From: Pseudobutyrivibrio sp.
GTDB taxonomy: Bacteria; Bacillota; Clostridia; Lachnospirales; Lachnospiraceae
Direction: 5' to 3'
Length of the DNA stretch: 38,559 nucleotides
NCBI GenBank assembly: GCA_017934625.1
Contig: JAGBJE010000276.1
Span: 1 to 38,559 of the forward strand
Shown here: positions 4,834 through 22,789 of the stretch, in pieces
How positions within the stretch are numbered: the first letter of the stretch is position 1
Layout: each line of letters begins with the position of its first letter
The notes under the pieces: generated by a model
What the model saw: the letters and a program-made list of their open reading frames with translations, nothing else
What the model was told of the DNA's origin: nothing
The model's database searches: none
Made by a program: the position numbers and the translations under genes

Positions 4834-5898
4834 CTAATTAAAATACTTAAGCAGCTCCTTGCAGCGTTCCATTGTCATTGTTGCATAGATATCATTGTAG
4901 TCAACAGCTGCCTGACTACCACCTAAATTCTTTGCTCTTTCAGCACTAGCATCTCTATCCTTAAGCCACTGCCTTTGCTCCTCAAGTGCTTTGTTAAATG
5001 TAGCTTCATCTGTATTGTACTTGATTAAACGCCAAATATAATTAAGGCACTCATCTGAAACTCTAATCTGATTTGATGTAGCCTCAACCATATCTGCAGT
5101 GGTAGCAGCCTCCGAAAGCAGGCCAGCATAATAATCATAGCTTTCCTTATATGTATTATAAGTACTCTCAGCATCTTCCTTAGGAGTCATTCTAGTAGAG
5201 CTTGTAATCCCCTGATTTTCATTAACATTTACAAGTGCCATATTTTCCAGTGTATCCTGCTGATCCTGGTAAGGAATAAACAGCCAATTCCTAACTTCCT
5301 CATCAATTTCTGAAACGGGCTTACCCGGCATATAAATTTCTACAACATCAGCATTTGAAAGTGCATACGGTGTTAGCGGAATATACCTTACACCATCTTC
5401 AATACTTTCCTTATCATCATTTAAGATTGTGATATCCTTCATATGCATTTTATATGTGAATTCATCCACCTTTTGAATGTTTTCAAAATGACCTTCATAT
5501 TCGCAGTAATAAATTGTTCCATCAGGATAATCATCACCAGTATCACCCATATCAGAATCATGATAACTGCCGTGGAAGCTACCATCCTTTTCTATATCAA
5601 AATCATCTTCCCAGCCACCTGCACCACTGGTAAATGAATAGCTATATTTTGCTAAATCCTCAAATGTTAATGAGGCTTCATCAGTGTCTGCTTCTTTTGT
5701 AGCACCATCAGTATTACCTTTGTCTTCCGGTGCAGGCACATCACTATTATTATTTGTCTCAGCCGTCGTCTCAACTTCACCATTTCTGTTTACAAAATAA
5801 TAAACACCGCAACCGGCCATTAACACTAATGCAACCGCAATCAAAACAATACTTATTCTTCTTTGAGTCCTTTTCTTATGTCTTTTACTCATTATCAT
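4834..5898 (-). CDS. Membrane-anchored protein with C-terminal LprI/DUF1311-like domain
   Basis: The product is about 354 residues. A longer frame opens at 5916, but AGGAAGGG sits just before the ATG at 5898, so that start (or the ATG at 5892) is preferred. A basic N-terminus (KRHKKRTQRR) precedes a hydrophobic segment ending LMAGC, a possible lipobox, although hydrophobic residues continue after the Cys, so a plain membrane anchor is also possible. A Thr/Glu/Asp-rich linker leads to a central domain with SYSFTSGAGGWEDDF, often seen in clostridial surface proteins. The C-terminal 110 residues match the lysozyme-inhibitor LprI pattern: QIRVSDECLNYIW, EEQRQWLKDRDA, MERCKELL. It starts 71 bases after comEC on the same strand, without a clear terminator between. 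Confidence 0.75.
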   Translation of the reverse strand: MIMSKRHKKRTQRRISIVLIAVALVLMAGCGVYYFVNRNGEVETTAETNNNSDVPAPEDKGNTDGATKEADTDEASLTFEDLAKYSYSFTSGAGGWEDDFDIEKDGSFHGSYHDSDMGDTGDDYPDGTIYYCEYEGHFENIQKVDEFTYKMHMKDITILNDDKESIEDGVRYIPLTPYALSNADVVEIYMPGKPVSEIDEEVRNWLFIPYQDQQDTLENMALVNVNENQGITSSTRMTPKEDAESTYNTYKESYDYYAGLLSEAATTADMVEATSNQIRVSDECLNYIWRLIKYNTDEATFNKALEEQRQWLKDRDASAERAKNLGGSQAAVDYNDIYATMTMERCKELLKYFN

Positions 5899-5969
5899 TT
5901 CCCTTCCTCGATGCATATCGCACCGAAATTTTATTTTAATACATTAGTAATCCTTTTACCATACAAATC

Positions 5970-8300
5970 TCACTCCTCCCCTATATATCCATTCACTTCC
6001 CCTACCCTAGCTCTCACGCGGCCAGAGTTCATGGTGTAATAGATTTGGCCTGCCGCGACCGAAATGCGTTCAATGGCTTCAGCTGATGGATGGCCATAGC
6101 GATTCACCTTAGCGCAGCTGATTACCGCCACGTCAGGTGACAATATAGATAAAAACTCTGGGTCTGAGCTGAATTTGCTGCCATGGTGGCTGACCTTTAG
6201 CAAATCCACATGCCCCACCAATCCACTTGCTGCAATTGCCTGTTCCTGTTCGGCGCCAATATCTCCACCAAAAAAGCCACTGTAATCAACAACTCCATCG
6301 CAATTTTCATCATATTTCATAGCCAACGACAATGATAAGGCATTGATATCATCAGAGATCATCCCCTCAAATGGATAAACACAGCTAAAAGAAAGATGCT
6401 TAGTACCGCACACATCTCCTTGCTTCATATAAAGCACATTAGTATTATTAGCATCTGCCAGTGCGAGCAATTCCATCAGTGTTTCTCCCTCAGGTATCTC
6501 TGCAGAAAGCACAATATTATCAATCCTATATCCCATATCAAGAAGCTCCAACACTCCTGACACATGATCTAAATCCATATGGGATAAAAACCAATAATCA
6601 ATATGCCCGGCGCCCTTATATTTCAAGAATGGCAAAAGAGTATATTTTCCAACGGCATCAGAGCTGGTACTGCCGCCGTCAATAAAAAAGCGTACTCCAT
6701 CACCAGAGCTTATATAGATTCCATCCCCCTGGCCAACATCTATAATATCTACCTCAAAGCCTTGCTTTTCTGGTATAAGCCAAATACCAGCAGCCACAAT
6801 TAGCAACGCAAGAGTAACCACAAGCTTTGACTTTCTTTCCTTTAGCAATCTACGGGGATTAGTCTGAGGCATAACATTCTTTATCTTAAATCTGTAATAA
6901 TCCACTATACTAGCTAAATTAGCAATCAATACCAAAACAACATAGTAGATTACCAACAGAATAAAGCTGTGTTTTCCTACTATCGCCCTTGAAAATGGCA
7001 GCTTACTAAACAAGCTGGCAAGTAATTCGTAGAAATAAATAATGATATGTGCAGGTATTAAAATAACCTTTGCAGCTGGTAATGCTAATAATCCTACAAA
7101 CCCGCCCAACAATCCAAAGCATAGAATCAGTGGCATTAGTGGCAACAGCAAAGTGTTCAAAAGTACAGAATAAACAGGTGTCTCGTAGTAAAAGAAAGTG
7201 ACAACAGGCAGCATAGCCACAGTGATTGTCAGTGAAAATACAAAGCTTGTCATTATCCACTCTATAAATCTAAAATGCAATGGTGGTTTATTATAATTAA
7301 AGCCATCATCGTATATACGAAGTCGCTTTCTGCCATCCCAAATTTTTCTATACATTTGACTTACCGGCATAACGATGTAGAGTATGGAAAGTATTGCTGA
7401 AAATGAAAATATAAAGCTTGAATTATTTATATATAAAGGATTCTCTATTAACAGCAAATCCGCCATAACAGCAAGTGCCGTTTTTGAATCGTAGGCTTCT
7501 CCTATAATATCAGCAATTAGATATATCAAAAACATACCTATTGCCCTTACAGAAGAGATGCTTCCACCTGTAAGCATTCCATATAAAATAGCAACACATC
7601 CTGCAAAAAATCCACTAATAACAAAGCCCAAGCCACCTTTTCTCAAAAGCCTGTATAATGCCATGCATACCACAGATACATGCAATCCGGAAACAGCCAG
7701 TATGTGAGCAATGCCAACCATCTGAAACAAGTCTCTTAGTCTAACGTCAAGTGTACTTTTATTACCAATACATACGCTACCTACAAAGCCTGCCTCTTCC
7801 CCACTTAGGCACTTATTGTATACATCTTGTATATTTTGGTTCAGTCTAAAAAGAATATCAAAGCCTGCAATTATTCCCGCATCAACAGACTTAAGCCTAA
7901 CTTCATCAAGCTTAAAATAATAGCCCAAAGAATTATAATAAGCCTTCTCGTCAAATCCACCTTCATTTGTAGCACTTTTAAATAGACTTATATTTCCTTC
8001 AATATTTAATTTACTTTTGTTTGGAATTTTATCGGAATCTAATTTGAATAAAAAAGAAGTATGTGTTAATGTGCCATTTTCACAGATTAAGGTAGCATCA
8101 TTAACATAATAAATTGTTGAATCGTTTTTAATTTCCTTACGAATTATATTACCTGTTGCCTTTACCCTTGCGCCATTAACCAAATTTGCTTCAACAGCAC
8201 CTGCCTTAGTGTAGGCCCCAATCAAATCAAAGGGGCCATACACACTAAAGACAACAATAAAAATATATAGCAAGGAAATTACTCCTAGCTTTCGCCGCAA
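5970..8300 (-). CDS. comEC: ComEC/Rec2 DNA-uptake channel with metallo-beta-lactamase domain
   Basis: The 776-residue protein has the full ComEC layout: an N-terminal helix and DUF4131-type soluble region (about 25-170), a multi-helix competence domain (about 190-480, containing AHILAVSGLHVSVVC) and a C-terminal metallo-beta-lactamase-like domain (about 515-776). The latter holds IDVGQGDGIYI, SHMDLDH near residue 575 and VSHHGSKFS near 705, so its metal-binding residues look intact. ComEC carries single-stranded DNA across the cytoplasmic membrane during transformation. It is the last gene of the comEA operon, 26 bases after the GerMN lipoprotein. The length is normal for the family. Confidence 0.95.
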   Translation of the reverse strand: MRRKLGVISLLYIFIVVFSVYGPFDLIGAYTKAGAVEANLVNGARVKATGNIIRKEIKNDSTIYYVNDATLICENGTLTHTSFLFKLDSDKIPNKSKLNIEGNISLFKSATNEGGFDEKAYYNSLGYYFKLDEVRLKSVDAGIIAGFDILFRLNQNIQDVYNKCLSGEEAGFVGSVCIGNKSTLDVRLRDLFQMVGIAHILAVSGLHVSVVCMALYRLLRKGGLGFVISGFFAGCVAILYGMLTGGSISSVRAIGMFLIYLIADIIGEAYDSKTALAVMADLLLIENPLYINNSSFIFSFSAILSILYIVMPVSQMYRKIWDGRKRLRIYDDGFNYNKPPLHFRFIEWIMTSFVFSLTITVAMLPVVTFFYYETPVYSVLLNTLLLPLMPLILCFGLLGGFVGLLALPAAKVILIPAHIIIYFYELLASLFSKLPFSRAIVGKHSFILLVIYYVVLVLIANLASIVDYYRFKIKNVMPQTNPRRLLKERKSKLVVTLALLIVAAGIWLIPEKQGFEVDIIDVGQGDGIYISSGDGVRFFIDGGSTSSDAVGKYTLLPFLKYKGAGHIDYWFLSHMDLDHVSGVLELLDMGYRIDNIVLSAEIPEGETLMELLALADANNTNVLYMKQGDVCGTKHLSFSCVYPFEGMISDDINALSLSLAMKYDENCDGVVDYSGFFGGDIGAEQEQAIAASGLVGHVDLLKVSHHGSKFSSDPEFLSILSPDVAVISCAKVNRYGHPSAEAIERISVAAGQIYYTMNSGRVRARVGEVNGYIGEE

Positions 8301-8326
8301 GTTATTTCCTCCAATTCTAAGTGAAT

Positions 8327-9334
8327 CTATTCTGCCGGCACTTCCTCATCTTCTGTATAGCCTTCAGAATAATCTTCTTCTAAATATTCCTGTTCATCAT
8401 CAAAATTAAGTTTTAATTCATTTATTATATCTTCATTTCTAGATATCGCTTTGGACATATCAATATCTACATTTGAAATATGTGGTGTTTCTCCATTCAC
8501 AAGAATTTGTACCTGCTTAATATTGTCAAGCTCTGTAAGGGAATTGACAATAGAATATACTGTTACATTCTCAGTTACTCCTGTGACAACAGTTTCGATA
8601 GCACCATCAAAATTGACAATACATACACCGTTTTCTGAAACTGTAATAGAATTAAGCTTTGTTCCAGTAGGAATGGCTGAAAGTAGCCCATCTGTCTCCG
8701 GTCCCTTAAGAAGCTGATCTATAACAAGCTTCTCCAATGATACATTTCTACTGTAGTACACCTCTCTGGTTTCAGGCACAGTAGATACACCATCTGCACT
8801 GGCAAAATAAAGAGTTAAATCTGTATGTAAAAGTGAATCTGTTTCCTGACCAAAATCTTCGATAAATGTATCTGCAGACATAGCTCCAATAGCCTCTCCA
8901 TTAGAATCGGTAAGTGGAGAATCATTTACAAAAATCGATACTGAATTAACACCCTTTATCTGAACCAATGTCTTAACAATAGCCGCTCTTACAAGAATTT
9001 CCGTATAGGTATCTAAGGACTCATAATCACCTACTAAATAAAGGTCCAGGCTTTTATTGTTTAGTTCCCAATTCTTTACTTCAACACCAGATGGAATTGT
9101 ATTGATAACATCAATATCATCAATATCCTTGGCAAGCTCTGTTAAAGCTTCTGTAATAGCACCATCTGTATCCACACTCTCGAAGTTGTAATCAACAGCA
9201 TTAATACCAGCCTTGTCTGTTCTCACATAATAGATTTTTCCATTGGACAATGTATTAGTTTTTCCACAGCCTGTTACGCCTAGCATCAAAACAAAAATCA
9301 GACAAACAGAAAGCACACGTTTAAATAATCTCAT
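8327..9334 (-). CDS. Lipoprotein with two GerMN domains
   Basis: The 335-residue product begins with a lipoprotein signal peptide (MRLFKRVLSVCLIFVLML, then GVTGC), giving an anchored extracellular protein. Two GerMN-like domains follow (about 30-165 and 170-300), recognised by LTELAKDIDDIDVINTIPSG and QLLKGPETDGLLSAIPTGTK, and an acidic tail ends the protein. GerMN domains occur in spore GerM and in LpqB, the lipoprotein partner of the MtrAB two-component system. Its ATG overlaps the kinase stop by one base (TAATG), so translation is coupled. An accessory role in kinase sensing is inferred from this arrangement. Confidence 0.88.
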   Translation of the reverse strand: MRLFKRVLSVCLIFVLMLGVTGCGKTNTLSNGKIYYVRTDKAGINAVDYNFESVDTDGAITEALTELAKDIDDIDVINTIPSGVEVKNWELNNKSLDLYLVGDYESLDTYTEILVRAAIVKTLVQIKGVNSVSIFVNDSPLTDSNGEAIGAMSADTFIEDFGQETDSLLHTDLTLYFASADGVSTVPETREVYYSRNVSLEKLVIDQLLKGPETDGLLSAIPTGTKLNSITVSENGVCIVNFDGAIETVVTGVTENVTVYSIVNSLTELDNIKQVQILVNGETPHISNVDIDMSKAISRNEDIINELKLNFDDEQEYLEEDYSEGYTEDEEVPAE

Positions 9335-10770
9335 TAGTGCACCTCCTTTTTAATATAATTCAGCGGAACTCTAACATCGAAAGTAGAGCCCTCACCTAAT
9401 TTAGAGCGAACCTTTATTTCACCATTATGCATAGCAATAGAGCTTTTAGTAATAGCAAGGCCCAGTCCTGTTCCACCTATTTCTCTAGAATGAGACTTAT
9501 CCGCACGGTAGAATCTCTCAAAGATGTGATCAACAGAATCCTCTGGAATTCCAAGACCATTATCCTCTACCTTTATATAGAAAAATTGGTGATCTGAGTT
9601 AAGTGAAATATGTACCCAACCACCTTCGTTATTATATTTGATAGCATTTTCCACAAGATTGGTAATCACCAGTGTAAACTTAACCTCATCTATCTCAGCC
9701 ACAACTGGTCTAAATGATTCGTATACTACCTCTATATCAGCCTTTTCAGCTATAGGCTTAAGTCGTTTAAGGATGTGATCAATAAGCTCGTTAATATTTA
9801 CAGCTGTAATATTAAGCATAGCTCCACTTTTATCCATTCTAACAAGGCTAAGTAAATCATTTATAATCTTAGTCTCACGGTCAATCTCATCGCCGATATC
9901 TAGCATAAATTCCTTATACATCTCAATTGGCACATCCTCAGAACCATTAAGAGAATCTGCAAGCACTTTCATTGATGTAAGTGGTGTTTTTAACTCGTGT
10001 GAGACATTGGAAACAAATTCCTGCCTAGACTCATCGATAGAATGAAGCTTGCCAATAACTTCATTGAATTTATTCGCAATGCGCTCTACCTCTACAAAGG
10101 ATTTTTCTTCTGGAAGAAGTGTGTCGTATTCTCTGATAATCGAATCAAGAGAATTAGACATTCTCTTAAGTGGTCTAGAAAAATACAGCTGAGCAAAAAC
10201 AGCTAGCAAAATAGTTAATGACAGAATAATTACTGCTCCAATCAAAATATAGGAACCAAAAACATCCTCATTTTGAGTAAGGTAATCCATAGATTTATTA
10301 ATAACAAGAGCACCTACTATCTCGCCGTCAGAATTAGTTAATGGAACTGACACTATAAGATAGTTAGTAGCCTTATCATAATAATATAAAGATTCCCCCT
10401 GCATAGAATAAATAATGTTTTCCCAAATAACAGTCTTTCCTATATCTGCTGAAAAGGAATCCCTAACAATCTTTAATGCAGAATTGATAATAAGAATACG
10501 TCCATTGTAGCTTTCTGCTACTGACTTAAGCTTAGTATCCAATATCTCATTATCTTCACCTGTAGCATATCCACTTGTAACTATCTGATTGTTATAAGAG
10601 ATAGCCTCTGCCATAAGATTAGTAGCATCTGTGTGTATAGACACTGATTCATAAGCACGCAAAGAAATAGGCACACAAACCAAAAATGGTAAGATGCCTA
10701 AAATGATAATAACTAAAGCTATTTTAAAACCAATACTGCGAAAAAAAACTAAACTAAATCTATTTTTCAT
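9334..10770 (-). CDS. Sensor histidine kinase (HAMP, HisKA, HATPase)
   Basis: The 478-residue kinase has a first membrane helix (about 14-37), an extracellular sensor region of about 130 residues, a second helix (about 172-195), a HAMP linker, a dimerisation domain with the phosphorylated His in SHELKTPLTSMKVL (about residue 257), and an ATPase domain with NLVENAIKYN (N box), VEDNGLGIPEDS (G1) and GGTGLGLAITKS (G2). It belongs to the PhoR/WalK/MtrB class. It starts 11 bases after its response regulator and overlaps the GerMN lipoprotein gene. The catalytic motifs are complete; its signal is unknown. Confidence 0.95.
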   Translation of the reverse strand: MKNRFSLVFFRSIGFKIALVIIILGILPFLVCVPISLRAYESVSIHTDATNLMAEAISYNNQIVTSGYATGEDNEILDTKLKSVAESYNGRILIINSALKIVRDSFSADIGKTVIWENIIYSMQGESLYYYDKATNYLIVSVPLTNSDGEIVGALVINKSMDYLTQNEDVFGSYILIGAVIILSLTILLAVFAQLYFSRPLKRMSNSLDSIIREYDTLLPEEKSFVEVERIANKFNEVIGKLHSIDESRQEFVSNVSHELKTPLTSMKVLADSLNGSEDVPIEMYKEFMLDIGDEIDRETKIINDLLSLVRMDKSGAMLNITAVNINELIDHILKRLKPIAEKADIEVVYESFRPVVAEIDEVKFTLVITNLVENAIKYNNEGGWVHISLNSDHQFFYIKVEDNGLGIPEDSVDHIFERFYRADKSHSREIGGTGLGLAITKSSIAMHNGEIKVRSKLGEGSTFDVRVPLNYIKKEVH

Positions 10771-10781
10771 TTTAACTCACT

Positions 10782-11477
10782 TTACATATAATAATAGCCT
10801 ACGCCCCACTTTGTACGTACGTACTTAGGCTCCTTTGGATTAGGCTCAATCTTCTCTCTAAGACGTCTAACATGAACATCCACAGTTCTTTCATCACCAG
10901 GATAGTCCTCTCCCCAGATTTTATGTAATAAGTCTTCTCTGGAGAATACCTTCTTAGGATTCGTTACAAGTAAAAGTAACATATCGAACTCCTTAGATGT
11001 AAGATTATATTCTTCCCCAAGTATAGTTAATCTGCGATTGCTTTTATCAAGAACTAAATCACCGTTTTCTACAATGTTCTCTTCTTTGTGTTCTGTCATT
11101 ACTGGTTGGCCCAAAGCGGCTCTACGCATAATAGCTTTAATGCGAGCCTTAACCTCAAGTATATTAAATGGCTTAGTAATGTAGTCATCAGCACCATACT
11201 CAAGACCTAATATCTTATCCATGTCATCGCCCTTTGCTGTAAGCATAACGATTGGTACTGTAGAAAATTCTCTAATGCTTTGACACACCTCAAAACCATC
11301 AAGCTTTGGAAGCATTACGTCTAAAAGAATCATATCATAATGATTAGCTGTAGCAAGATCAAGTGCCTCCTGTCCATCATATGCACAGTCTACCTCCATT
11401 CCGTCCTGCTCTAAAGAAAATCTGATTCCCTTGACTATAAGTTTTTCATCGTCTACTACTAATACTTTTTTTGCCAT
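10782..11477 (-). CDS. OmpR-family response regulator of the com operon
   Basis: The 231-residue protein has a receiver domain with acidic residues VVDDEK, phosphoacceptor Asp53 in ILLDVMLPKLDG and conserved ITKPFN, then a winged-helix domain (YNLTSKEFDMLLLL; VDVHVRRLREKIEPNP). It starts 20 bases after comEA and is followed by its kinase. It is the likely output of the kinase/GerMN sensing unit. Whether it controls com genes, cell-wall genes or both cannot be seen. Intact and of usual length. Confidence 0.95.
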   Translation of the reverse strand: MAKKVLVVDDEKLIVKGIRFSLEQDGMEVDCAYDGQEALDLATANHYDMILLDVMLPKLDGFEVCQSIREFSTVPIVMLTAKGDDMDKILGLEYGADDYITKPFNILEVKARIKAIMRRAALGQPVMTEHKEENIVENGDLVLDKSNRRLTILGEEYNLTSKEFDMLLLLVTNPKKVFSREDLLHKIWGEDYPGDERTVDVHVRRLREKIEPNPKEPKYVRTKWGVGYYYM

Positions 11478-11497
11478 TACTTTCCTCTAAATCATTT

Positions 11498-12070
11498 TTA
11501 AATTTTAATAAGTGAATTTATTTGATTGAAAATGCCATCGCCTATTCCAGAAACCTTTTTGATATCTTCTATTGAAGAAAAACTACCATTTGCATCTCTG
11601 TAGGCAATAATTTGATTAGCCTTAGACTCACCAATACCCGGCAAAGTCTTAAGCTCTGTTACGGTGGCTGTGTTAATATTAACCAGTCCATCATCTGCCT
11701 CTTCAGCCTGGGCCTTAGCCTCTAGCCTAGTAGCCTCATCCACAGTGTAGATGTAAAGCTTTTGCCCATCCTCTAAAAGTGCCGCTTGATTAATATCACT
11801 GTCATCTGCAGAATCAAGTAAACCACCTGCAGCTTCTATTGCTGCATAGACTCTAGAGCCTTCGGGAAGCTGGTAAACATCAGGTTTATTAACCGCTCCA
11901 GCTACTTGAACATAGATTGTCTTAGGAATCAAATCCTCCACAACCTGCTGGTTGGCTTCCTGTTTATTGTCCGCCTCTTCTACTAGCTCTGTTGATTGAA
12001 AATATGATGCTTTGCTGCAACCACTAAACAAAAAAATGCTACAACAAGCAAATAAAATTAGTCTTTTCAT
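11498..12070 (-). CDS. comEA: ComEA, DNA receptor with SLBB and helix-hairpin-helix domains
   Basis: The 190-residue protein starts with a lipoprotein signal peptide (MKRLILFACCSIFLFSGC), a low-complexity linker, an SLBB domain (about 50-110: VQVAGAVNKPDVYQLPEGS, LEDGQKLYIY) and a C-terminal double helix-hairpin-helix DNA-binding module (about 128-190: VNINTATVTELKTLPGIGES, IKKVSGIGDG). ComEA binds double-stranded DNA outside the membrane and passes it to ComEC. Many ComEA proteins use a membrane helix; here lipid anchoring is predicted. It is the first gene of the operon, and its ribosome binding site AGGAG lies inside a perfect 9-bp hairpin that touches the start codon. Confidence 0.95.
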   Translation of the reverse strand: MKRLILFACCSIFLFSGCSKASYFQSTELVEEADNKQEANQQVVEDLIPKTIYVQVAGAVNKPDVYQLPEGSRVYAAIEAAGGLLDSADDSDINQAALLEDGQKLYIYTVDEATRLEAKAQAEEADDGLVNINTATVTELKTLPGIGESKANQIIAYRDANGSFSSIEDIKKVSGIGDGIFNQINSLIKI

Positions 12071-12114: not shown

Positions 12115-12143
12115 ATTGTAGCGAATTTTTCCATATATTACAA
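12115..12143 (-). promoter_or_regulatory. Promoter of the comEA operon
   Basis: On the minus strand TTGTAA (12143-12138) and TACAAT (12120-12115) are separated by exactly 17 bases. It begins 5 bases after the argD stop codon, and the predicted start near 12108 would give a short leader that includes the start-site hairpin. No strong terminator for argD is seen, so readthrough from the arg operon is also possible. Confidence 0.6.
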
Positions 12144-12148
12144 GAGTT

Positions 12149-13348
12149 TTACAAAAATGTGTCAAGTACTTTTTCTATTTTTTTCTTAAACTCGTCTACA
12201 TCCTGCTCTGTAATAACAAGCGGTGGCAAAAGTCTAAGAACATCTGAGCCCGCCGAAAGCACAATAAGATGCTCGTCTAACAGAGCCTTTGTCACTACCT
12301 CTTTAACAGGAATTGTAAGAACCAAGCCCTGCATAAGACCAAGACCTCTTCTGCCTGTGACGAAATCATACTTAGCCACAATAGCATCAAGAACCTGCTC
12401 AAAGTACGCAGCCACCTTATTTACATGGTCAATAAGCTTGTAATCCTCAAACATATCAAACACCTGAGAAACTGCTGCTGTACAAAGGGGATTACCACCA
12501 TAAGTGGTACCATGGTCTCCAGGTACCAAAGAGTTTTCTGCCACATCCTTTGTAACAGCAAATGCTCCTACTGGAACCCCATTTCCTAAAGCCTTTGCTG
12601 TTGTAAGAATATCTGGCTTAATGCCATACTGCTGATATGCATACATGCTTCCAGTACGTCCCATTCCGCACTGAACCTCGTCAAGAATCAGAAGGATTTC
12701 TTCTTCATCACATAGATTTCTAACCTTTGTAATGAATTCCTTATCAGCAGGATATAAACCACCTTCACCCTGTACTGTCTCCATGATGATTGCACAGGTC
12801 TTATCAGTGAGATTAGCCAGCACGCTTCCAAAATCATTAAAAGTGGCAAACTTCACACCAGACATAAGTGGATAGAAAGGCTCTCTATAATGGTCGGTGC
12901 CTGTAACAGAAAGGGAACCAACAGTACGTCCATGGAAGGAATTTTCCATGGCAATAATCTCATAATCCCCTGCTCCACTTTTATTATATGCATATTTCTT
13001 GGCTGTCTTAAGAGCTCCCTCTATGGCCTCAGCTCCAGAATTTGTAAAGAAAACCTTGTCCATACCAGAAGCCCTACAGAGCTTTTCTGCAGCCTCAATC
13101 ATAGGCTGATGATAATAAAGATTTGATGTATGAGTAATTCTTTTTATCTGGGATATTAGAGCATTCTCATAATCTTCATTTCCATATCCAAATGCCATTA
13201 CACCTATTCCAGAGGCGAAATCTAAATATTCTTCATCCACTTCATCATATAGATGCACCCCTTTACCATAATCAAATACTACAGGAAATCTATTGTACAC
13301 ATGAAAAAGATTTTCCTCGGCTTTTTCAATAATCTGTTTTTTATTCAT
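12149..13348 (-). CDS. argD: Acetylornithine aminotransferase
   Basis: The 399-residue class III, PLP-dependent aminotransferase converts N-acetylglutamate semialdehyde to N-acetylornithine. Visible signatures are [20 protein letters not shown], the SFHGRT motif, the cofactor-binding [14 protein letters not shown] and the PLP-lysine region [16 protein letters not shown]. Its start overlaps the argB stop by 8 bases, with GAGGT as ribosome binding site, showing translational coupling at the end of the argC-GNAT-argJ-argB-argD operon. Ornithine aminotransferases are similar, but the operon makes ArgD the clear choice. Confidence 0.96.
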
Positions 13349-14249
13349 TGTAATACCTCGTATCCTTGTCTCCTATAATGGCTGTTCCAATTCCTTTGTT
13401 TGTAAAGATTTCAAGAAGTAAACAATGTGCAATTCTGCCATCCAAAATATGCACTCTAGAAACCCCTTCCTCAATCGCTTCGATACAATTATTAAGCTTT
13501 GGAAGCATACCACCACCTATAAATCCGTCTCCAATAAGCTTCTTTGCCTCTTCTACAGATAGCTCAGAAATAAGTGTATCTGGATCATCCTTATCCTTGT
13601 AAACACCTTCGATATCAGTTAAAAATGCCAGCTTTTCTGCACTAACCGCCTTTGCGATAGCACATGCTGCATCATCAGCATTGATGTTGTAAGTCACAAA
13701 ATTCTCATCCATTCCAATAGGACATACAATTGGCAAGAAATCCTTCTCCAACAAATCCATAAGAATCTTTGGATTAACATCTGTAATCTCACCCACAAAG
13801 CCAATATCCTTGCCATCAGAAAGCTTCTTTTCTACCTTTAAAAGACCACCGTCCTTACCAGAGATTCCAATTGCATTAACTCCTAAGGATTGAACATTCT
13901 GTACCAGCGATTTATTTACCTTGTTAAGAACCATCTCGGCAATTTCCATTGTAGGTTCGTCTGTCTTTCTAAGGCCGTTAACAAACTCAGGCGTCATGCC
14001 AGTCTTCTCTACCCACTTAGAGATTTCTTTGCCACCGCCGTGGACGATGATTGGCTTAAATCCTACCAGCTTTAACAGTGTCACATCCTGAATAACCTGC
14101 TTTTTAAGCTCCTCGTCAATCATGGCACTTCCGCCATATTTTACAACTATAATCTTGCGATTAAATCTTTGAATATATGGCAATGCCTCAATTAAAACCT
14201 CTGCCTTATCCATTGCCTTGTCCATTACCTTTTGCATACTTACATCCAT
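13341..14249 (-). CDS. argB: Acetylglutamate kinase
   Basis: ArgB phosphorylates N-acetylglutamate, the second step of arginine synthesis. The amino-acid-kinase fold is evident from [52 protein letters not shown] and [11 protein letters not shown] longer frame opens at 14261, but GGAGG lies five bases before the ATG at 14249, which is chosen here (302 residues). The gene follows argJ by 13 bases and overlaps argD. Feedback inhibition by arginine is common in ArgB proteins with an extended N-terminal helix; the [20 protein letters not shown] segment suits such a helix, but this is inference. Confidence 0.95.
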
Positions 14250-14262
14250 AACATCCTCCATA

Positions 14263-15486
14263 TTAGCTGCGGTAATCAGCGTTAATCTTTACATAATCAT
14301 AGGTCAGGTCACAGCCCCATGCTGTAGCTTCGGCATTCCCTTCATGCATATCCACATACACGGTAACTGAATCAGCCTTCATAATCTTAAGTGCTTCATC
14401 CTCATCAAACACAATCGGTGTTCCCTTATCAAAAACCTTAAGTGTTCCATTCACACTTTTAAAATAAAGCTCTACATCATTTTGGTCAAAATCTGCTCCT
14501 GAATATCCCATAGCACATAGGAATCTTCCGAAGTTAGCATCACAACCAAATATTGCAGCCTTTGATAAATTGGAGCTTACAATCGCACGTGATAAAGTCT
14601 TTGCATCTTCTTTTGATTTAGCATTAACAACTGTTGCTTCAAACAGCTTGCTGGCTCCTTCACCATCTGCTGCCATCTTTTTAGCAAGGGCCTCACATAC
14701 ATAGGCTAATGCTGCTTTAAATGTATTATAATCTTCTCCCTTTTCAGTAATCTTTGGATTTTCTGCAAGTCCATTGGCCATGCATATAAGCGTGTCATTT
14801 GTAGAAGTATCCCCATCTACTGTAATCATATTGAAGGTATCAGCAACCACATCGCTAACTGCTTCCTGTAAAAGAGACTTTTCAATCGCTAAATCAGTTC
14901 CAAGGAAAGCAAGCATTGTGCACATATTAGGATGAATCATTCCTGACCCTTTACTCATTCCACCTAGCACAACCTTTTTTCCAGAGATTTCAAATTCCAC
15001 TGCAATCTCTTTATTTACTGTATCTGTTGTCATTATAGCTTTAGATGCATCAGTTCCAGCTTCTATGCTTTCATCAAGCTTTGCTGCCATCATATTTACA
15101 CCATTTACAAGCTTATCCACTGGAAGCTGCATACCAATAACACCTGTCGATGCAACAGCAACTCCCTTGAAAGGCACATTAAGCTTTGCCTCTACAGCCT
15201 TAGCTGTGGCCTCGCAAGCATCAAAGCCCTCCTTACCTGTACATGCATTGGCAATTCCTGAATTAATAACAACCGCCTGCAATGGCTCTTCTGATTTTAC
15301 AATCTCCATATCCCACTGGACACAAGCTGCCTTTACCACATTAGATGTAAAAGTACCAGCACTTACGCATGGTTTCTTAGAATAGACAAGTGCCATATCT
15401 GTTCTACCCTGATATTTAATACCGGCTGCAGCACTGGCTGCCATAAATCCCTTTGCCGCAGTAATTCCTCCACTAATCTCCTTCAT
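14263..15486 (-). CDS. argJ: Glutamate N-acetyltransferase / ornithine acetyltransferase
   Basis: The 407-residue ArgJ recycles the acetyl group from acetylornithine to glutamate and in bifunctional forms also acetylates glutamate from acetyl-CoA. It is made as a precursor that cleaves itself before a Thr; here the site is in [20 protein letters not shown] (Cys-Thr rather than the more familiar Ala-Thr). Other signatures are [15 protein letters not shown] near residue 72, [10 protein letters not shown] and the C-terminal [18 protein letters not shown]. Ribosome binding site GGAGC precedes the ATG. It lies between a GNAT gene and argB. Confidence 0.96.
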
Positions 15487-15495
15487 AGTTCGCTC

Positions 15496-15996
15496 CTATT
15501 TATTGAATGCAATAATATTTTCATCATTTAAAACAAAATCATATACATTTAAATCAGTACGTGGCTTCCACTGTTCTGATTTCCAAAAGCTATTTCCAAG
15601 CTCATTTTCTGTAAAAGCTACCAGCTGTATTTTAGTGATGCCCTCGTTCTTAAGCTTTACCATAGCCTCTAATGCCATGGCTCTCCCGATACCCTTTTTA
15701 CGATAGTCCTCATGAACACATACATGATAAAAGCAGGCGTGTCGACCATCGTGGCCAACTAATATAGTGCCTACAATCTTACCATCGGCTACAGCCACCA
15801 CTGAAAGCCCGGGATTTCTGTCAAGCATTCGACTAACGCCTTCCTTGGAATCATCTATGCTTCGCATTGCAAATCCATGAATGGTAGTCCAAAGCTTGTA
15901 AACCTCATCATAATCTTCCTTTTCCATAGTTCTAATGCTGTAGTCCATATTAACTCCTATATTAAGTGAAATCTGAAAGGTATCTGTAGTAATCAT
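15496..15996 (-). CDS. GNAT-family N-acetyltransferase within the arg operon
   Basis: This 166-residue (or 150-residue) protein has a GNAT fold: SIRTMEKEDYDEVYKLW at the start, VVAVADGKIVGTILVG and the acetyl-CoA motif VHEDYRKKGIGRAM. Two in-frame starts each have a good ribosome binding site: ATG 15996 after AAGGAGGG, and ATG 15948 after AGGAG with a 6-base spacer. The domain itself starts at the second. Its place between argC and argJ suggests a link to arginine synthesis, perhaps glutamate acetylation, but the fold is too general to fix the substrate. Confidence 0.85.
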   Translation of the reverse strand: MITTDTFQISLNIGVNMDYSIRTMEKEDYDEVYKLWTTIHGFAMRSIDDSKEGVSRMLDRNPGLSVVAVADGKIVGTILVGHDGRHACFYHVCVHEDYRKKGIGRAMALEAMVKLKNEGITKIQLVAFTENELGNSFWKSEQWKPRTDLNVYDFVLNDENIIAFNK

Positions 15997-16047
15997 AGGT
16001 CCCTCCTTATATTACTATTCGTAAAGGCGCACATTTATAATTGCATA

Positions 16048-17106
16048 TTAAGGAAACATTGGTGCAAAATCCAGTCCCGTTTTCTCATCTAAACCAAATA
16101 AAATGTTCATATTCTGAACAGCTTGTCCTGCCGCTCCCTTAACAAGATTATCAAGAGCCCCCATCATAACGATTCGGCCAGTACGCTCATCAATCTTGCA
16201 GCTAACATCAACAAAATTGCTTCCCTCAACCCACTTAGTTTCAGGGCACTCGCCATATTCTAAAACTCTAACAAAGAACTCATCATCATACATATCGTGA
16301 TATGCCTTCATTACCTCTTCCTTTGTTGGAAGCTTGCCAGCTGTCTTATTAAGTGTGGCATATTCAGTAACAAGAATTCCTCTATTCATAGGAACCAAAT
16401 GTGGTGTGAAATTAATCAAAATCTCTTTACCACAGGCATATCCTAATTGCTCTTCAATCTCTGGTGTATGTCTGTGACTGGTAACTCCATATGCTTTGAT
16501 ACTCTCATTTACCTCACAGTATAGATTAGGAAGCTTCGCCCCTCTTCCTGCACCGCTTGTACCAGATTTAGCATCAATAATAAGAGTTGATGGGTCGATA
16601 AGGCCAGCCTTAACTAAAGGATACGCTGTAAGGATTGAGCATGTGGTGTAGCAACCAGGATTGGCAATAAGTCTTGCGCCCTTTTCTTTGTCCCTATTTA
16701 TTTCACATAGACCGTATACAGCCTCTTCAATAAACTGCGGACTCATGTGCTTGATGCCGTACCATTTTTCATATATAGAAACGTCCTTAATACGATAATC
16801 TGCCGACAAATCGATTACCTTACAGTTACTTAGAATCTCTTCTGTAAGAACCCCTGCTAAAAATCCCTGTGGAGTAGCTGTAAATATAACATCCACCTGC
16901 TTTGAAAGCTCTAATATATTATCATCCAGGCATTTGCTATCTACTAAAGTAAACATGTTCTTATATATAGAAGCAAATCGTTCATCCACATAAGATTTAG
17001 ATCCGTACCATACAATTTCTGCCTCAGGATGCCCGTAAAGAATTCTAACGATTTCCGCGCCTGCATAACCAGTGGCTCCAATAATTCCTACCTTTATCAT
17101 ACCCAT
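16048..17106 (-). CDS. argC: N-acetyl-gamma-glutamyl-phosphate reductase
   Basis: ArgC reduces N-acetylglutamyl phosphate with NADPH. The NAD(P)-binding start VGIIGATGYAGAEIVRIL, the catalytic Cys in ANPGCYTTCSILTAYPL, SGTSGAGRGAKL and SHRHTPEIEEQLG are all present and the length (352) is normal. Three Met codons cluster at the start; AGGAGG lies five bases from the second (17106), which is chosen. It is the first gene of the operon, with a promoter at 17135-17163 and ARG-box-like sites upstream. Confidence 0.95.
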   Translation of the reverse strand: MGMIKVGIIGATGYAGAEIVRILYGHPEAEIVWYGSKSYVDERFASIYKNMFTLVDSKCLDDNILELSKQVDVIFTATPQGFLAGVLTEEILSNCKVIDLSADYRIKDVSIYEKWYGIKHMSPQFIEEAVYGLCEINRDKEKGARLIANPGCYTTCSILTAYPLVKAGLIDPSTLIIDAKSGTSGAGRGAKLPNLYCEVNESIKAYGVTSHRHTPEIEEQLGYACGKEILINFTPHLVPMNRGILVTEYATLNKTAGKLPTKEEVMKAYHDMYDDEFFVRVLEYGECPETKWVEGSNFVDVSCKIDERTGRIVMMGALDNLVKGAAGQAVQNMNILFGLDEKTGLDFAPMFP

Positions 17107-17134
17107 CATGTCCTCCTATTAAACGTCTGAGTAA

Positions 17135-17163
17135 ATTGTAGTACAATACTTTTATGAAGTAAA
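17135..17163 (-). promoter_or_regulatory. Promoter of the argC operon
   Basis: On the minus strand TTTACT (17163-17158) and TACAAT (17140-17135) are 17 bases apart, giving a start near 17128, about 20 bases before the argC ATG. The -10 box matches 5 of 6 and the -35 box 4 of 6 consensus positions. Confidence 0.6.
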
Positions 17164-17193
17164 GTGCTACAGTAAATTTTTATCGATTAATTA

Positions 17194-17280
17194 TGCATAA
17201 ATATACACTGTAATTCCTATATTTTCAACATCATTTTTCACAAAATTCATTTTTATGCGCTGTATATGCATATATTTACA
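17194..17280. promoter_or_regulatory. ARG-box-like operators between divergent argC and argG
   Basis: The stretch 17194-17207 (TGCATAAATATACA) fits the palindromic ArgR pattern TGNATWWWWATNCA at every position. A second site, 17267-17280 (TGCATATATTTACA), has one mismatch and overlaps TTTACA, a plausible -35 box for argG. A weaker match lies at 17246-17259 on the opposite strand. ArgR hexamers bind such pairs to repress arginine synthesis. The sites are read by eye from the known consensus; no argR gene is in the window. Confidence 0.6.
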
Positions 17281-17379
17281 CTTGTATTTTTAACTTTAAT
17301 GTAGTAAAGTATGAATCAACAAAGCCAATTGGCTTACAGGGAGATTTTTAATACACTATAGATTAAGGAGAATTTAAAC

Positions 17380-18603
17380 ATGGCACAAGAAAAAGTAATA
17401 CTAGCTTATTCAGGCGGACTTGACACAACAGCCATCATTCCATGGCTAAAGGAAAACTATAATTATGAAGTAATCTGCTGCTGTATCGATTGTGGACAGG
17501 GCGATGAGTTAGATGGACTTGAAGAAAGAGCTAAGCTTTCAGGTGCATCAAAGCTTTATATTGAAGATATCGTTGATGATTTCTGCGATAACTACATCGT
17601 TCCATGCGTACAGGCAGGCGCTGTATACGAGAATAAATATTTACTTGGTACTGCAATGGCTCGTCCTGGCATCGCAGCTAAGCTTGTAGAGATTGCTAGA
17701 AAAGAAGGTGCTACTGCAATCTGCCACGGAGCTACTGGAAAGGGTAACGATCAGATTCGTTTCGAGCTTGGTATCAAGGCTCTTGCTCCAGACATCAAAA
17801 TCATTGCTGCATGGCGTAGCGACAAGTGGAACCTCCAGTCTCGTCAGGAAGAAATCGACTACTGCAAGGCTCACGGCATCGATTTACCATTCTCTGCAGA
17901 CCAGTCTTACAGCCGTGACAGAAACCTATGGCACATTAGCCACGAAGGCCTTGAGCTTGAAGATCCTGCTACAGAGCCAAATTATGATCACCTTCTTGTG
18001 CTTACCACTCCACCTGAGAAGGCACCTGAGACACCTGAGTATGTAACTCTTACATTTGAAAAGGGTGTTCCTACATCAGTGAATGGAAAGAAAATGAAGG
18101 TAAGCGATATTATCAAAGAGCTCAATGTTATCGGTGGACGCAACGGAATCGGCATCGTCGATATCGTAGAAAACCGTGTTGTTGGTATGAAATCACGTGG
18201 CGTATACGAGACACCAGGTGGAACTATCCTTATGGAAGCACATGAGCAGCTAGAAGAACTCATCCTCGACCGCGCGACATTAGAGGTTAAAAAAGAAATG
18301 GGTGCAAAACTTGCACAGGTTTGCTATGAAGGCAAATGGTTCACACCACTTTGCGATGCTATCCAGGCATTTGTAAAATCTACCCAGGAATACGTTACTG
18401 GCGAAGTTAAGATTAAGCTTTACAAGGGCAACATCATCAAGGCTGGCACAACATCACCATACTCACTCTACTCTGAGTCACTTGCATCATTCACAACTGG
18501 TGACCTTTACGACCACCATGATGCAGAAGGCTTCATCACACTTTGGGGCCTCCCACTAAAGGTACGTGCACTAAAGCTTCAGGAAAATAAGGAAAATAAG
18601 TAA
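17380..18603 (+). CDS. argG: Argininosuccinate synthase
   Basis: The only plus-strand gene, 407 residues. It joins citrulline and aspartate using ATP. The PP-loop [15 protein letters not shown] opens the protein; [38 protein letters not shown] and [11 protein letters not shown] are family signatures. The ATG follows AAGGAG by nine bases. Codon use is visibly more biased (many GCT, CTT, ATC codons) than in the neighbours, as for a well-expressed gene. argH is not adjacent. It faces thiN and shares a bidirectional terminator with it. Confidence 0.97.
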
Positions 18604-20854: not shown

Positions 20855-22789
20855 TTAATTGGCTGTTCCTTGTACAACTTGATTTACTATAGGGTCACCT
20901 GGTACCCCCTCTGCAGGTGTAAGAGAAACTGTAAGCTCTGCCTTTGTAACATCAGATATATTAATCGCACCACTCTTTGGAATAGAGCCTGACTTGTTCA
21001 ACTCAGCAATAGAATATGTACATTCACCCTCATAAGGATTTGCAATTGTATAATTGTAGGTTGTTGTCTTAGCCCCTTTACTTATTACAAGTGTAATAGT
21101 GGTATTAGCTGCTACCATTTCACCTGGTGCAATTGACTGGCTGATAACCTGGCCAGTAGGAACTGTGTCAGAGTAATCTGATGATGTGCTTGTTACAACA
21201 ATATTCTTTGCATCAAGTACTGTTGTAGCCTCAGCCTGTGTAAGACCAACTACACTAGGAACTGCGACTGTAGCATCAGCATCGGAAGTAGTGTTTTCTG
21301 TTCCTGTAGCTGGTGTTGTAGTTTCAGTTGTATTATTAGTGCTTTCACTTGTAGTATTTGAACTAGTATCACTATTTGACTGTGAGCTTGAAGAATCACT
21401 TGAAGTTGAGCTATTCTTCTCTTCTTCGCCTGAAACTGTTAGTCTAAGTGTATCATTTAATGAGAATTCATCACCCTCTTTTGTTGACTGACTCAAAACA
21501 ACACCATCTTCATAGTCGTCACTGTCTTCATATGAAACCAAAATGTTATCATCATCTAGGCCAATTCCCTTAAGCTCTGTTTCAGCCTCTTCTAATTGAG
21601 TACCAACAACATTAATCATAGTTACCTTTTTAGAGCCGAACTTGAATACACCAATATGTGTTCCAAGAATAGCAACTAAAATAACAACAATAGCAATACC
21701 TGCTACGATTCCTGAAATGGTGATAATTTTATCCATTCTGGAATCATCTTCCCCATCCTCGTCATCATAGTACTCGTCGTCATCGTAGTATTCATCATCA
21801 TAATACTCGTCATCATAGTACTCTTCTTCATCATCATCGTATTCGTCATCGAAGATAAGAGCCTGGGCAGCCTTTTTAGTAATGGATTCCTCTTGCTCAG
21901 GAGTAATACGACTCATCACCTGTGTCTTGCCAAGATCTGAGGCTTCCATAATCTGAACAAAATCCTCATTAGGACTAACAAGTGCCTTCTTTAAATCCAT
22001 AAGCATGTCAGAGATAGTTGGATATCTTCTATCTGGTGACTTCATTGTAGCCTTAAGGATAATCTTCTCTAATGAAATAGGTAGGTCTGGTGCATATGCA
22101 CTAGGTGCAACCATCTCCTCCTGCAAATGCTGAATAGCGATTGCAACAGTGTTATCTCCATCAAATGGAACACGACCTGTAACCATTTCGTACATTACAA
22201 TACCAAGAGAATAAATATCACTCTTGCCATCTACAAAACCATTTCTAGCCTGCTCAGGTGATGAATAATGAACAGAACCCATCACGTCAGCATGGATTGT
22301 GTTAGAGCTTGCTGCTCTAGCGATACCAAAATCAGTAACCTTAACCTTACCCTCTGTAGAAATAATAATATTCTGTGGCTTAATATCTCTATGAATGATT
22401 CCCTTCTGGTGAGCGGCCTCGATACCACGTCCCACCTGAATGGCAATTGAGATTGCTTCCTTGAAGTTAAGCTGTCCCTTCTTTTCGATATATGTCTTAA
22501 GTGTAATACCCTCAACATATTCCATAACGATGAAGTACATGCCATTCTCAGAACCTACATCATAAATATTAACAATGTTAGGATGCTCCAGGCCAGCTGC
22601 TGACTGAGCCTCTGTTCTAAACTTTGCAACAAAGGTTGCATCCTCTGAGAATTCCTGCTTTAAAATCTTAATAGCAACTTCTCTACCTAATATATGGTCC
22701 TTAGCGCGATATACATCTGACATTCCGCCTGCGCCAACTTTATCAATAACTTCATATCTGTCTGCTATAAATACGCCTTGTGTAATCAT
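20855..22789 (-). CDS. prkC: PASTA-domain serine/threonine kinase (PrkC/Stk1 type)
   Basis: The 644-residue membrane kinase has an N-terminal catalytic domain (1-270: DKVGAGGMSDVYRAKD, VAIKIL, IIHRDIKPQNI, VTDFGIAR), an acidic Tyr/Asp/Glu repeat at about 311-346, one membrane helix (about 355-378) and an extracellular part with two PASTA repeats (about 390-455 and 510-575: VPSVVGLTQAEATTVLDAKN), separated by a Ser/Thr/Asn-rich linker, and an unassigned C-terminal domain. PASTA kinases sense muropeptides or lipid II and regulate wall synthesis and division. It lies 14 bases after its phosphatase gene. Many homologues have three or more PASTA repeats; two clear ones are seen here. Confidence 0.95.
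   Translation of the reverse strand: MITQGVFIADRYEVIDKVGAGGMSDVYRAKDHILGREVAIKILKQEFSEDATFVAKFRTEAQSAAGLEHPNIVNIYDVGSENGMYFIVMEYVEGITLKTYIEKKGQLNFKEAISIAIQVGRGIEAAHQKGIIHRDIKPQNIIISTEGKVKVTDFGIARAASSNTIHADVMGSVHYSSPEQARNGFVDGKSDIYSLGIVMYEMVTGRVPFDGDNTVAIAIQHLQEEMVAPSAYAPDLPISLEKIILKATMKSPDRRYPTISDMLMDLKKALVSPNEDFVQIMEASDLGKTQVMSRITPEQEESITKKAAQALIFDDEYDDDEEEYYDDEYYDDEYYDDDEYYDDEDGEDDSRMDKIITISGIVAGIAIVVILVAILGTHIGVFKFGSKKVTMINVVGTQLEEAETELKGIGLDDDNILVSYEDSDDYEDGVVLSQSTKEGDEFSLNDTLRLTVSGEEEKNSSTSSDSSSSQSNSDTSSNTTSESTNNTTETTTPATGTENTTSDADATVAVPSVVGLTQAEATTVLDAKNIVVTSTSSDYSDTVPTGQVISQSIAPGEMVAANTTITLVISKGAKTTTYNYTIANPYEGECTYSIAELNKSGSIPKSGAINISDVTKAELTVSLTPAEGVPGDPIVNQVVQGTAN

Follow-up and report, generated by a model that had tools for sequence, protein, structure and literature searches.

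How gut and rumen Clostridia turn on DNA uptake, and whether they do so at all, is a question addressed here with a stretch of 38,559 nucleotides (the window) from Pseudobutyrivibrio sp., a member of the Lachnospiraceae (contig JAGBJE010000276.1; the source assembly, GCA_017934625.1, comprises 3.16 Mb in 310 contigs and is 96% complete). Five genes on its minus strand lie head to tail in the order comEA, OmpR-type response regulator (RR), histidine kinase (HK), GerMN lipoprotein and comEC. The intervals between them measure 20, 11, −1 and 26 bases. Re-derived coordinates agreed in full with the initial annotation of this row, and Pfam and NCBIfam matches were consistent with the names of all five genes. 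We propose that the row is one operon, in which a conserved three-part envelope-sensing system would activate its own transcription together with the genes for DNA uptake; to this reading we assign a probability of roughly 55%. The condition of the envelope would then probably turn DNA uptake on or off across the large set of gut and rumen bacteria that keep this arrangement. The proposal is built on what can be read from the sequences, namely the gene order, its conservation and a conserved promoter with repeats in front of comEA. We found no published description of a comEA-RR-HK-GerMN-comEC operon in the literature on GerMN, on competence in Clostridia or Lachnospiraceae, or on WalR, most of it surveyed at the level of listed papers.

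Conservation and breakage of the gene row

The link between signalling and uptake genes could be incidental if close relatives carried the signalling genes elsewhere. A survey of gene order in 150 genomes of the family, taken to be the Lachnospiraceae, gave a different picture. Matches to the GerMN protein were present in 144 of these genomes, matches to the RR at E≤1e-85 likewise in 144, and comEC in 149. The RR gene lay 1.0–2.5 kb ahead of the GerMN gene on the same strand, leaving space for the HK gene, in 116 of the 141 genomes holding both, and comEC followed at a distance of up to 3 kb from the matched stretch of GerMN in 117 of the 129 genomes with both genes placed among the matches listed (16 genomes were unplaced among the comEC matches listed). 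Among the failing pairs, 18 (RR-GerMN) and 9 (GerMN-comEC) were on different contigs. Forty family regions, the forty best GerMN matches after the window itself, were fetched, and 30 of these contained all five genes in order, comEC being split over two frames in one (L057). The rest comprised four regions cut by contig ends, five with just HK-GerMN-comEC together and one (L060) in which an extra gene for a GGDEF-EAL protein with receiver domains (5306–7480) separates GerMN from comEC. A set of 80 loci found via RR similarity (the named loci), which is biased to near relatives, yielded 64 complete rows and 12 truncated by contig ends; in the remainder comEC was short or displaced (L228, L238, L286) or the overlap of comEA and RR exceeded the set limit (L258). 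The trio of RR, HK and GerMN lipoprotein between the two uptake genes is thus conserved. Its recurrence in relatives, and in six further families of the Lachnospirales, shows that the row is not a matter of chance.

The way in which the row breaks was informative with respect to its regulator. Twenty regions were fetched mostly because RR and GerMN were non-adjacent or one of them was missing, and 12 more for checks. Every one of the 57 family loci that hold a complete RR had comEA directly ahead of the RR gene, whereas the adjacency of RR and HK was broken in 16 of the 57, a figure that is no rate, as odd loci had been sought out deliberately. The breaks correspond to at least six changes on the RR tree, and the split row consists of comEA-RR plus HK-GerMN-comEC. 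GerMN directly followed HK in 53 of 56 family loci and in all 22 loci of other families, the exceptions being two genomes that lack GerMN and keep HK next to comEC (L071, L072) and one with an insertion (L334). comEC followed GerMN in 50 of 55 loci, with two contig ends, one insertion and two inversions accounting for the others; one genome (G144) was counted twice in both of these adjacency counts. The insertion in L334 (4900–9410), seen in one genome, comprises three genes between HK and GerMN, including one for a MoxR-like ATPase as judged by eye. Two genomes depart further: G117 has comEC without RR or GerMN, and in G091 none of RR, GerMN and comEC was found. Because comEA-RR is always kept while RR-HK breaks, the link would be functional rather than incidental: the RR gene appears to be bound more firmly to comEA than to the gene for its own kinase, and we regard this as the strongest sign in favour of such a link.

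Outside the family, all five genes were present in five further families of the order (L092, L093, L095, L097 and L098) and in a sixth (L159), while L091 has RR-HK-GerMN without com genes and L160 has GerMN-comEC alone. Among the 30 best loci of the class Clostridia, the window's included, HK directly preceded GerMN in all 30 and comEC followed GerMN in 11, all within the same order. Twenty larger regions were examined, two from within the order and 18 from elsewhere. Eight, which together represent five further families of the class, contained comEA-RR-HK-GerMN without comEC, seven had RR-HK-GerMN without comEA (two of these at a contig start), and L158 was truncated by a contig end. The first four genes are therefore more widespread as a unit than their join with comEC, which may have joined in this order or left elsewhere. 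This bears on the initial annotation, according to which the trio was inserted between comEA and comEC. The trio does lie between them, but insertion is only one possible history, and given the eight regions in which the unit stands without comEC, a later arrival of that gene is just as possible. Genes adjoining the cluster look like D-Ala-D-Ala carboxypeptidase genes in several of the loci outside the family, and eight of eight picked by eye matched Peptidase_S11.

A conserved promoter with repeats before comEA

Upstream of comEA we observed a sigma-A-like promoter with the pattern CTTGTAAT followed by TANAAT. The pattern was read off a first family set, where it was also counted (27 of 50 loci; shuffles, mean 0.21, maximum 3). 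The only fair test was a set of 75 other loci, from which two identical loci had been dropped and which stem from one similarity search, so that the loci and their repeat sites are mutually related; here the promoter was present before comEA in 61 of 75, with shuffles giving a mean of 0.25 and a maximum of 2. It was absent upstream of argB (0/58), RR (0/79), HK (0/75), GerMN (0/75) and comEC (0/67).

The columns upstream of the promoter, which had not been used in the selection, displayed GAAA-like blocks. With up to one mismatch, TGWAA occurred at −20 in 26 of 63 sites, at −9 in 32 and at both positions in 18 (positions relative to CTTG), compared to a mean of 3.6 (standard deviation 2.8, maximum 9) at other offsets. 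A third copy at +2 in 58 of the 63 sites is mostly a consequence of the pattern by which these had been chosen. Repeats with an 11-bp spacing over the −35 region are a signature of OmpR/PhoB-type regulators, and directly repeated elements spaced by one helical turn were indeed found at the promoter in the named loci and, more weakly, in the first set. The elements in the window are included in Table 1.

Table 1. Genes and regulatory elements of the com locus in the window
Feature	Position	Strand	Basis
comEA, DNA-binding receptor	11498..12070	-	HHH_3 and SLBB (Pfam), lipobox
OmpR-type response regulator (RR)	10782..11477	-	Response_reg and Trans_reg_C
Histidine kinase (HK)	9334..10770	-	HisKA and HATPase_c, no PAS match
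Lipoprotein with two GerMN domains, GerM-like	8327..9334	-	Germane in two stretches (Pfam)
comEC, transformation DNA channel	5970..8300	-	Competence and Lactamase_B; TTG start preceded by GGAGG
Promoter and putative RR operator of the operon	12115..12164	-	Overlaps argD end; repeats, -35 and -10 read from sequence
-35, TTGTAA	12143-12138	-	
-10, TACAAT	12120-12115	-	
Repeat TGACA (11-bp spacing)	12164-12160	-	
Repeat TGTAA (11-bp spacing)	12153-12149	-	
Repeat TGTAA (11-bp spacing)	12142-12138	-	

A stricter description was tried with the WalR-type box, the consensus of which we take to be TGTWAH-N5-TGTWAH. Of the 64 loci fetched, 4 had an exact copy ahead of comEA (shuffles, mean 0.16, maximum 2; opposite strand, 0), and 12 had one when a single mismatch was allowed (shuffles, mean 3.3, maximum 8; opposite strand, 6). 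As a description of the operator it proved too narrow and was superseded by the TGWAA repeat analysis. Scanning 21 genomes of the genus with the box pattern gave 71 matches versus 47 for a backwards control, and among the 30 matches listed as loci seven were before comEA and no other promoter-type match recurred. The strict box combined with the promoter gave 28 matches versus 6 for the control in 397 genomes, 10 of them before comEA, that of the window included. Neither scan revealed another recurrent target, although patterns modelled on comEA cannot exclude one.

Kinship of the signalling proteins

The initial annotation had described the trio as an MtrAB-LpqB-like module. What agrees with MtrA-MtrB-LpqB is the order RR-HK-lipoprotein, the GerMN domain in the lipoprotein and the kinase without a PAS domain (PMC9210968). 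Membership, however, did not hold: the window RR scored 231.3 bits with the MtrA model (cut-off 300) and the HK 189 bits with the MtrB model (cut-off 450), and both scored higher with the NCBIfam models of WalR (YycF; 252 bits, cut-off 340) and WalK (277 bits, cut-off 725, the best stretch being the kinase core), the highest-scoring models for the two proteins. The lipoprotein reached 20.8 bits with the LpqB model, which has a cut-off of 881, and has Germane as its sole Pfam domain, whereas LpqB carries a propeller; moreover, com genes surround the trio of the window. Relatives gave a similar result, as 24 aligned RRs all matched the WalR model (best E 1.7e-82, versus 3.6e-74 for MtrA) and 25 aligned HKs all matched that of WalK (best E 1.6e-83, versus 1.7e-61 for MtrB), these being best E-values and not a ranking per member. 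In the same alignments residues D9, D10, D53, T80 and K102 of the RR and H258 of the HK were invariant. The window RR is 98% identical to that of Pseudobutyrivibrio sp. OR37. When the extracellular domain of the HK was compared with solved structures, the best match had an E-value of 1.5.

The trio is not WalRK proper either. In an RR tree of 52 rows, obtained by a quick search without bootstrap, 39 com-type RRs from this and other families formed one branch (SH-like approximate likelihood ratio test, 99), while 10 of the 11 rows labelled WalR-like were on a separate branch (97). Together with the model cut-offs, this tree led us to reject both MtrAB-LpqB and WalRK in the strict sense. A separate WalR-like RR was present in each of ten genomes sampled from the other families of the order; three of these RRs passed the WalR cut-off and the others scored 263–338. 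In nine of the ten it was encoded beside a kinase of about 510–630 residues, and at least six of the ten also have a com-type RR (L091, L092, L093, L095, L097 and L098). Within the family, no RR passed the WalR cut-off in any of the 150 genomes, although WalRK has been described as present in all Firmicutes (PMC9210968). The 57 family matches to the WalR model at E≤1e-80, an E-value that catches nine of the ten control genomes, were all RRs of com loci. The next-best RRs in four genomes of the genus were encoded next to metK (two) or next to unrelated genes, with kinases of about 390–510 residues. The com-linked system is thus related to WalRK but separate from it and, within the reach of this search, the family retains no closer relative of WalRK. 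A kinase without a PAS domain and a lipoprotein are also described for WalRK of Clostridioides difficile (walA-walR-walK-truA2; PMC9210968), but there a propeller is predicted for the lipoprotein, and the operon is reported not to be autoregulated.

The lipoprotein of the window is GerM-like. It has a lipobox according to our regular expression and the tandem GerMN domains typical of GerM, and its predicted structure matches that of Bacillus GerM, in agreement with the sequence searches; that LpqB-like folds did not appear among the structural matches listed carries no weight. It shares the two GerMN domains and the fold with GerM of Bacillus subtilis and differs in that its gene adjoins kinase and com genes.

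A proposed switch for DNA uptake and its alternatives

In the mechanism that we propose, the HK would sense the state of the envelope outside the membrane and would be tuned there by the GerM-like lipoprotein, the product of the next gene, acting from the outer face of the membrane. The HK would then phosphorylate the RR, which would bind the TGWAA repeats with 11-bp spacing over the −35 region before comEA and so drive the transcription of the operon upwards, with its own gene, the receptor gene comEA and, where it is still joined, the channel gene comEC among the targets. The resulting uptake would presumably lead to transformation. This scheme is modelled by analogy on LpqB, which is reported to bind the outer domain of MtrB and to modulate it (PMC3353115), and on MtrA, whose regulon reportedly comprises wall genes (PMC6265350). 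The envelope side of the reading is suggested by the WalRK models scoring highest and by the eight carboxypeptidase neighbours in other families. In Streptococcus salivarius competence is reported to rise upon wall impairment (PMC9765292), and in Micrococcus luteus a point mutation in a response regulator reduced transformation at least 1000-fold (PMC8467076).

Several observations weigh against this proposal. In one genome (G039) comEC comes directly after comEA, the signalling genes are missing from between the two, and no RR match was found. Below the best class matches GerMN lies apart from the kinase in L150, L152 and L160, and most GerMN proteins of the loci from a phylum search (most of L193–L219) are without such a kinase alongside. 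The repeats were weaker and looser in the first family set, with −20 in 4 and −9 in 7 of 27 sites, where offsets −10 and −11 gave 8 and 7. The promoter was found at none of 13 HK starts (12 in split units and one not split), compared to 3 of 5 for comEA in the same loci, so that kinase and channel are not always under its control. Among loci of other families with comEA-RR it was seen in 1 of 14. Finally, no ComG-type ATPase was identified in the genus, that is, in the window's own metagenome-assembled genome and five further genomes, with two partial matches in G154 left untyped.

Conceivably, the trio could be a WalRK-like housekeeping regulator of the wall with the com genes as mere passengers, its real targets being wall genes and not DNA uptake. 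This possibility, which we consider real but doubtful, draws on the kinship with WalR and WalK, on the absence from the family of an RR above the WalR cut-off where each of the ten other-family genomes holds a separate WalR-like RR, and on the carboxypeptidase neighbours in other families. In the named loci, furthermore, the median identity to the window was 77% for the RR versus 43% for ComEA, 49% for HK, 39% for GerMN and 34% for ComEC, and a regulator so much more conserved than its neighbours is what would be expected if it had many targets. However, the retention of comEA-RR in 57 of 57 loci, split operons included, is unexpected for passengers; the scan of 397 genomes gave no recurrent target besides comEA; and G039, G091 and G117 lack both a com-type RR at E≤1e-85 and a WalR-model match at E≤1e-80. 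A tentative combination of the two views is that the trio of the Lachnospiraceae is at once the nearest remnant of WalRK and a dedicated switch for DNA uptake, which would place wall remodelling and DNA import under one regulator, its gene being tied more tightly to comEA than to its own kinase gene.

It is unlikely, in our view, that the role of the uptake genes lies outside classical transformation, for instance in the use of DNA as food or another type of pilus, in which case the row would not be a competence operon in the strict sense. The T2SSE ATPases typed in the genus were PilT-like and TadA/VirB11-like. The window's own genome had one over the cut-off, which was PilT-like, and five good genomes of the genus had two strong matches each (about 404–414 and 371–378 residues), those of G158 being typed as one TadA/VirB11-like protein, below the cut-offs, and one PilT; the ComGA model scored 67 and 137 bits against a cut-off of 300. 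With no ComGA-type ATPase identified, DNA uptake there would need another pilus or serve another purpose. On the other hand, comEC was present in 149 of the 150 family genomes, and a tad cluster is discussed alongside com mutants of M. luteus (PMC8467076). In two further loci (L191, L316), from genomes without an identified PilB/ComGA-type ATPase, a gene for a PilT-type ATPase is located beside three small genes, one of which in L191 has a weak ComGE match (19.6 bits, cut-off 49).

ComEC scored 224 bits with TIGR00361 (cut-off 190) and the helix-hairpin-helix repeat of ComEA 73.4 bits with TIGR00426 (cut-off 53.1), while ComEA remained below the cut-off of the full-length comE model TIGR01259 (108 bits, cut-off 152). 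That ComEA is a predicted lipoprotein was borne out by a lipobox in the window. Our strict regular expression also detected one for 35 of the 49 ComEAs from family loci and 56 of the 79 from named loci, but for none of 14 from other families; several of the misses resemble lipoboxes by eye, and in the 14 other-family loci ComEA looks membrane-anchored. A lipoprotein ComEA thus looks like a trait of the Lachnospiraceae. In M. luteus comEA and comEC overlap and are co-transcribed (PMC8467076); the row described here has the same receptor and channel genes as such comEA-comEC operons, but with a kinase system inside the operon and a ComEA that in this family mostly has a lipobox.

That the lipoprotein acts in DNA uptake itself, as a membrane scaffold for ComEA or ComEC, and not in signalling is improbable: the GerM-like fold, the reported role of GerM in assembling a trans-envelope complex in sporulation (PMC7924749) and the GerMN-comEC pair of L160, which lacks RR and HK, are in line with it, but GerMN follows HK in all 30 of the best class loci and precedes comEC in just 11, and L071 and L072 retain comEA, RR, HK and comEC without GerMN.

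If a switch of DNA uptake by the envelope state is indeed what the operon provides, the connection of competence with wall damage that is reported for S. salivarius (PMC9765292) would reach a second class of bacteria, built there from different parts. The Lachnospiraceae also provide a family in which no RR reached the WalR cut-off in 150 genomes. The conserved, self-contained candidate regulator and its proposed operator make the question testable in species such as Roseburia faecis, Pseudobutyrivibrio xylanivorans and Eubacterium oxidoreducens, in which the locus is present.

No Rfam family or tRNA gene was identified when the window was scanned for them. Directly upstream of comEA, arginine genes (12149–18603) comprise argD, argB, argJ and a gene for an argC-like semialdehyde dehydrogenase, with an argininosuccinate synthase gene among them on the opposite strand; argB-argD also precede comEA in many of the 40 fetched family regions. 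About 9 kb away from the com operon lies a gene for a PASTA-domain Ser/Thr kinase (20855–22789), and a kinase of this type, StkP, is reported to tie wall state to competence in S. salivarius (PMC9765292). The gene following comEC (4834–5916) encodes a product with an LprI-type domain, and in several relatives a gene that by eye is holA-like occupies this position instead.

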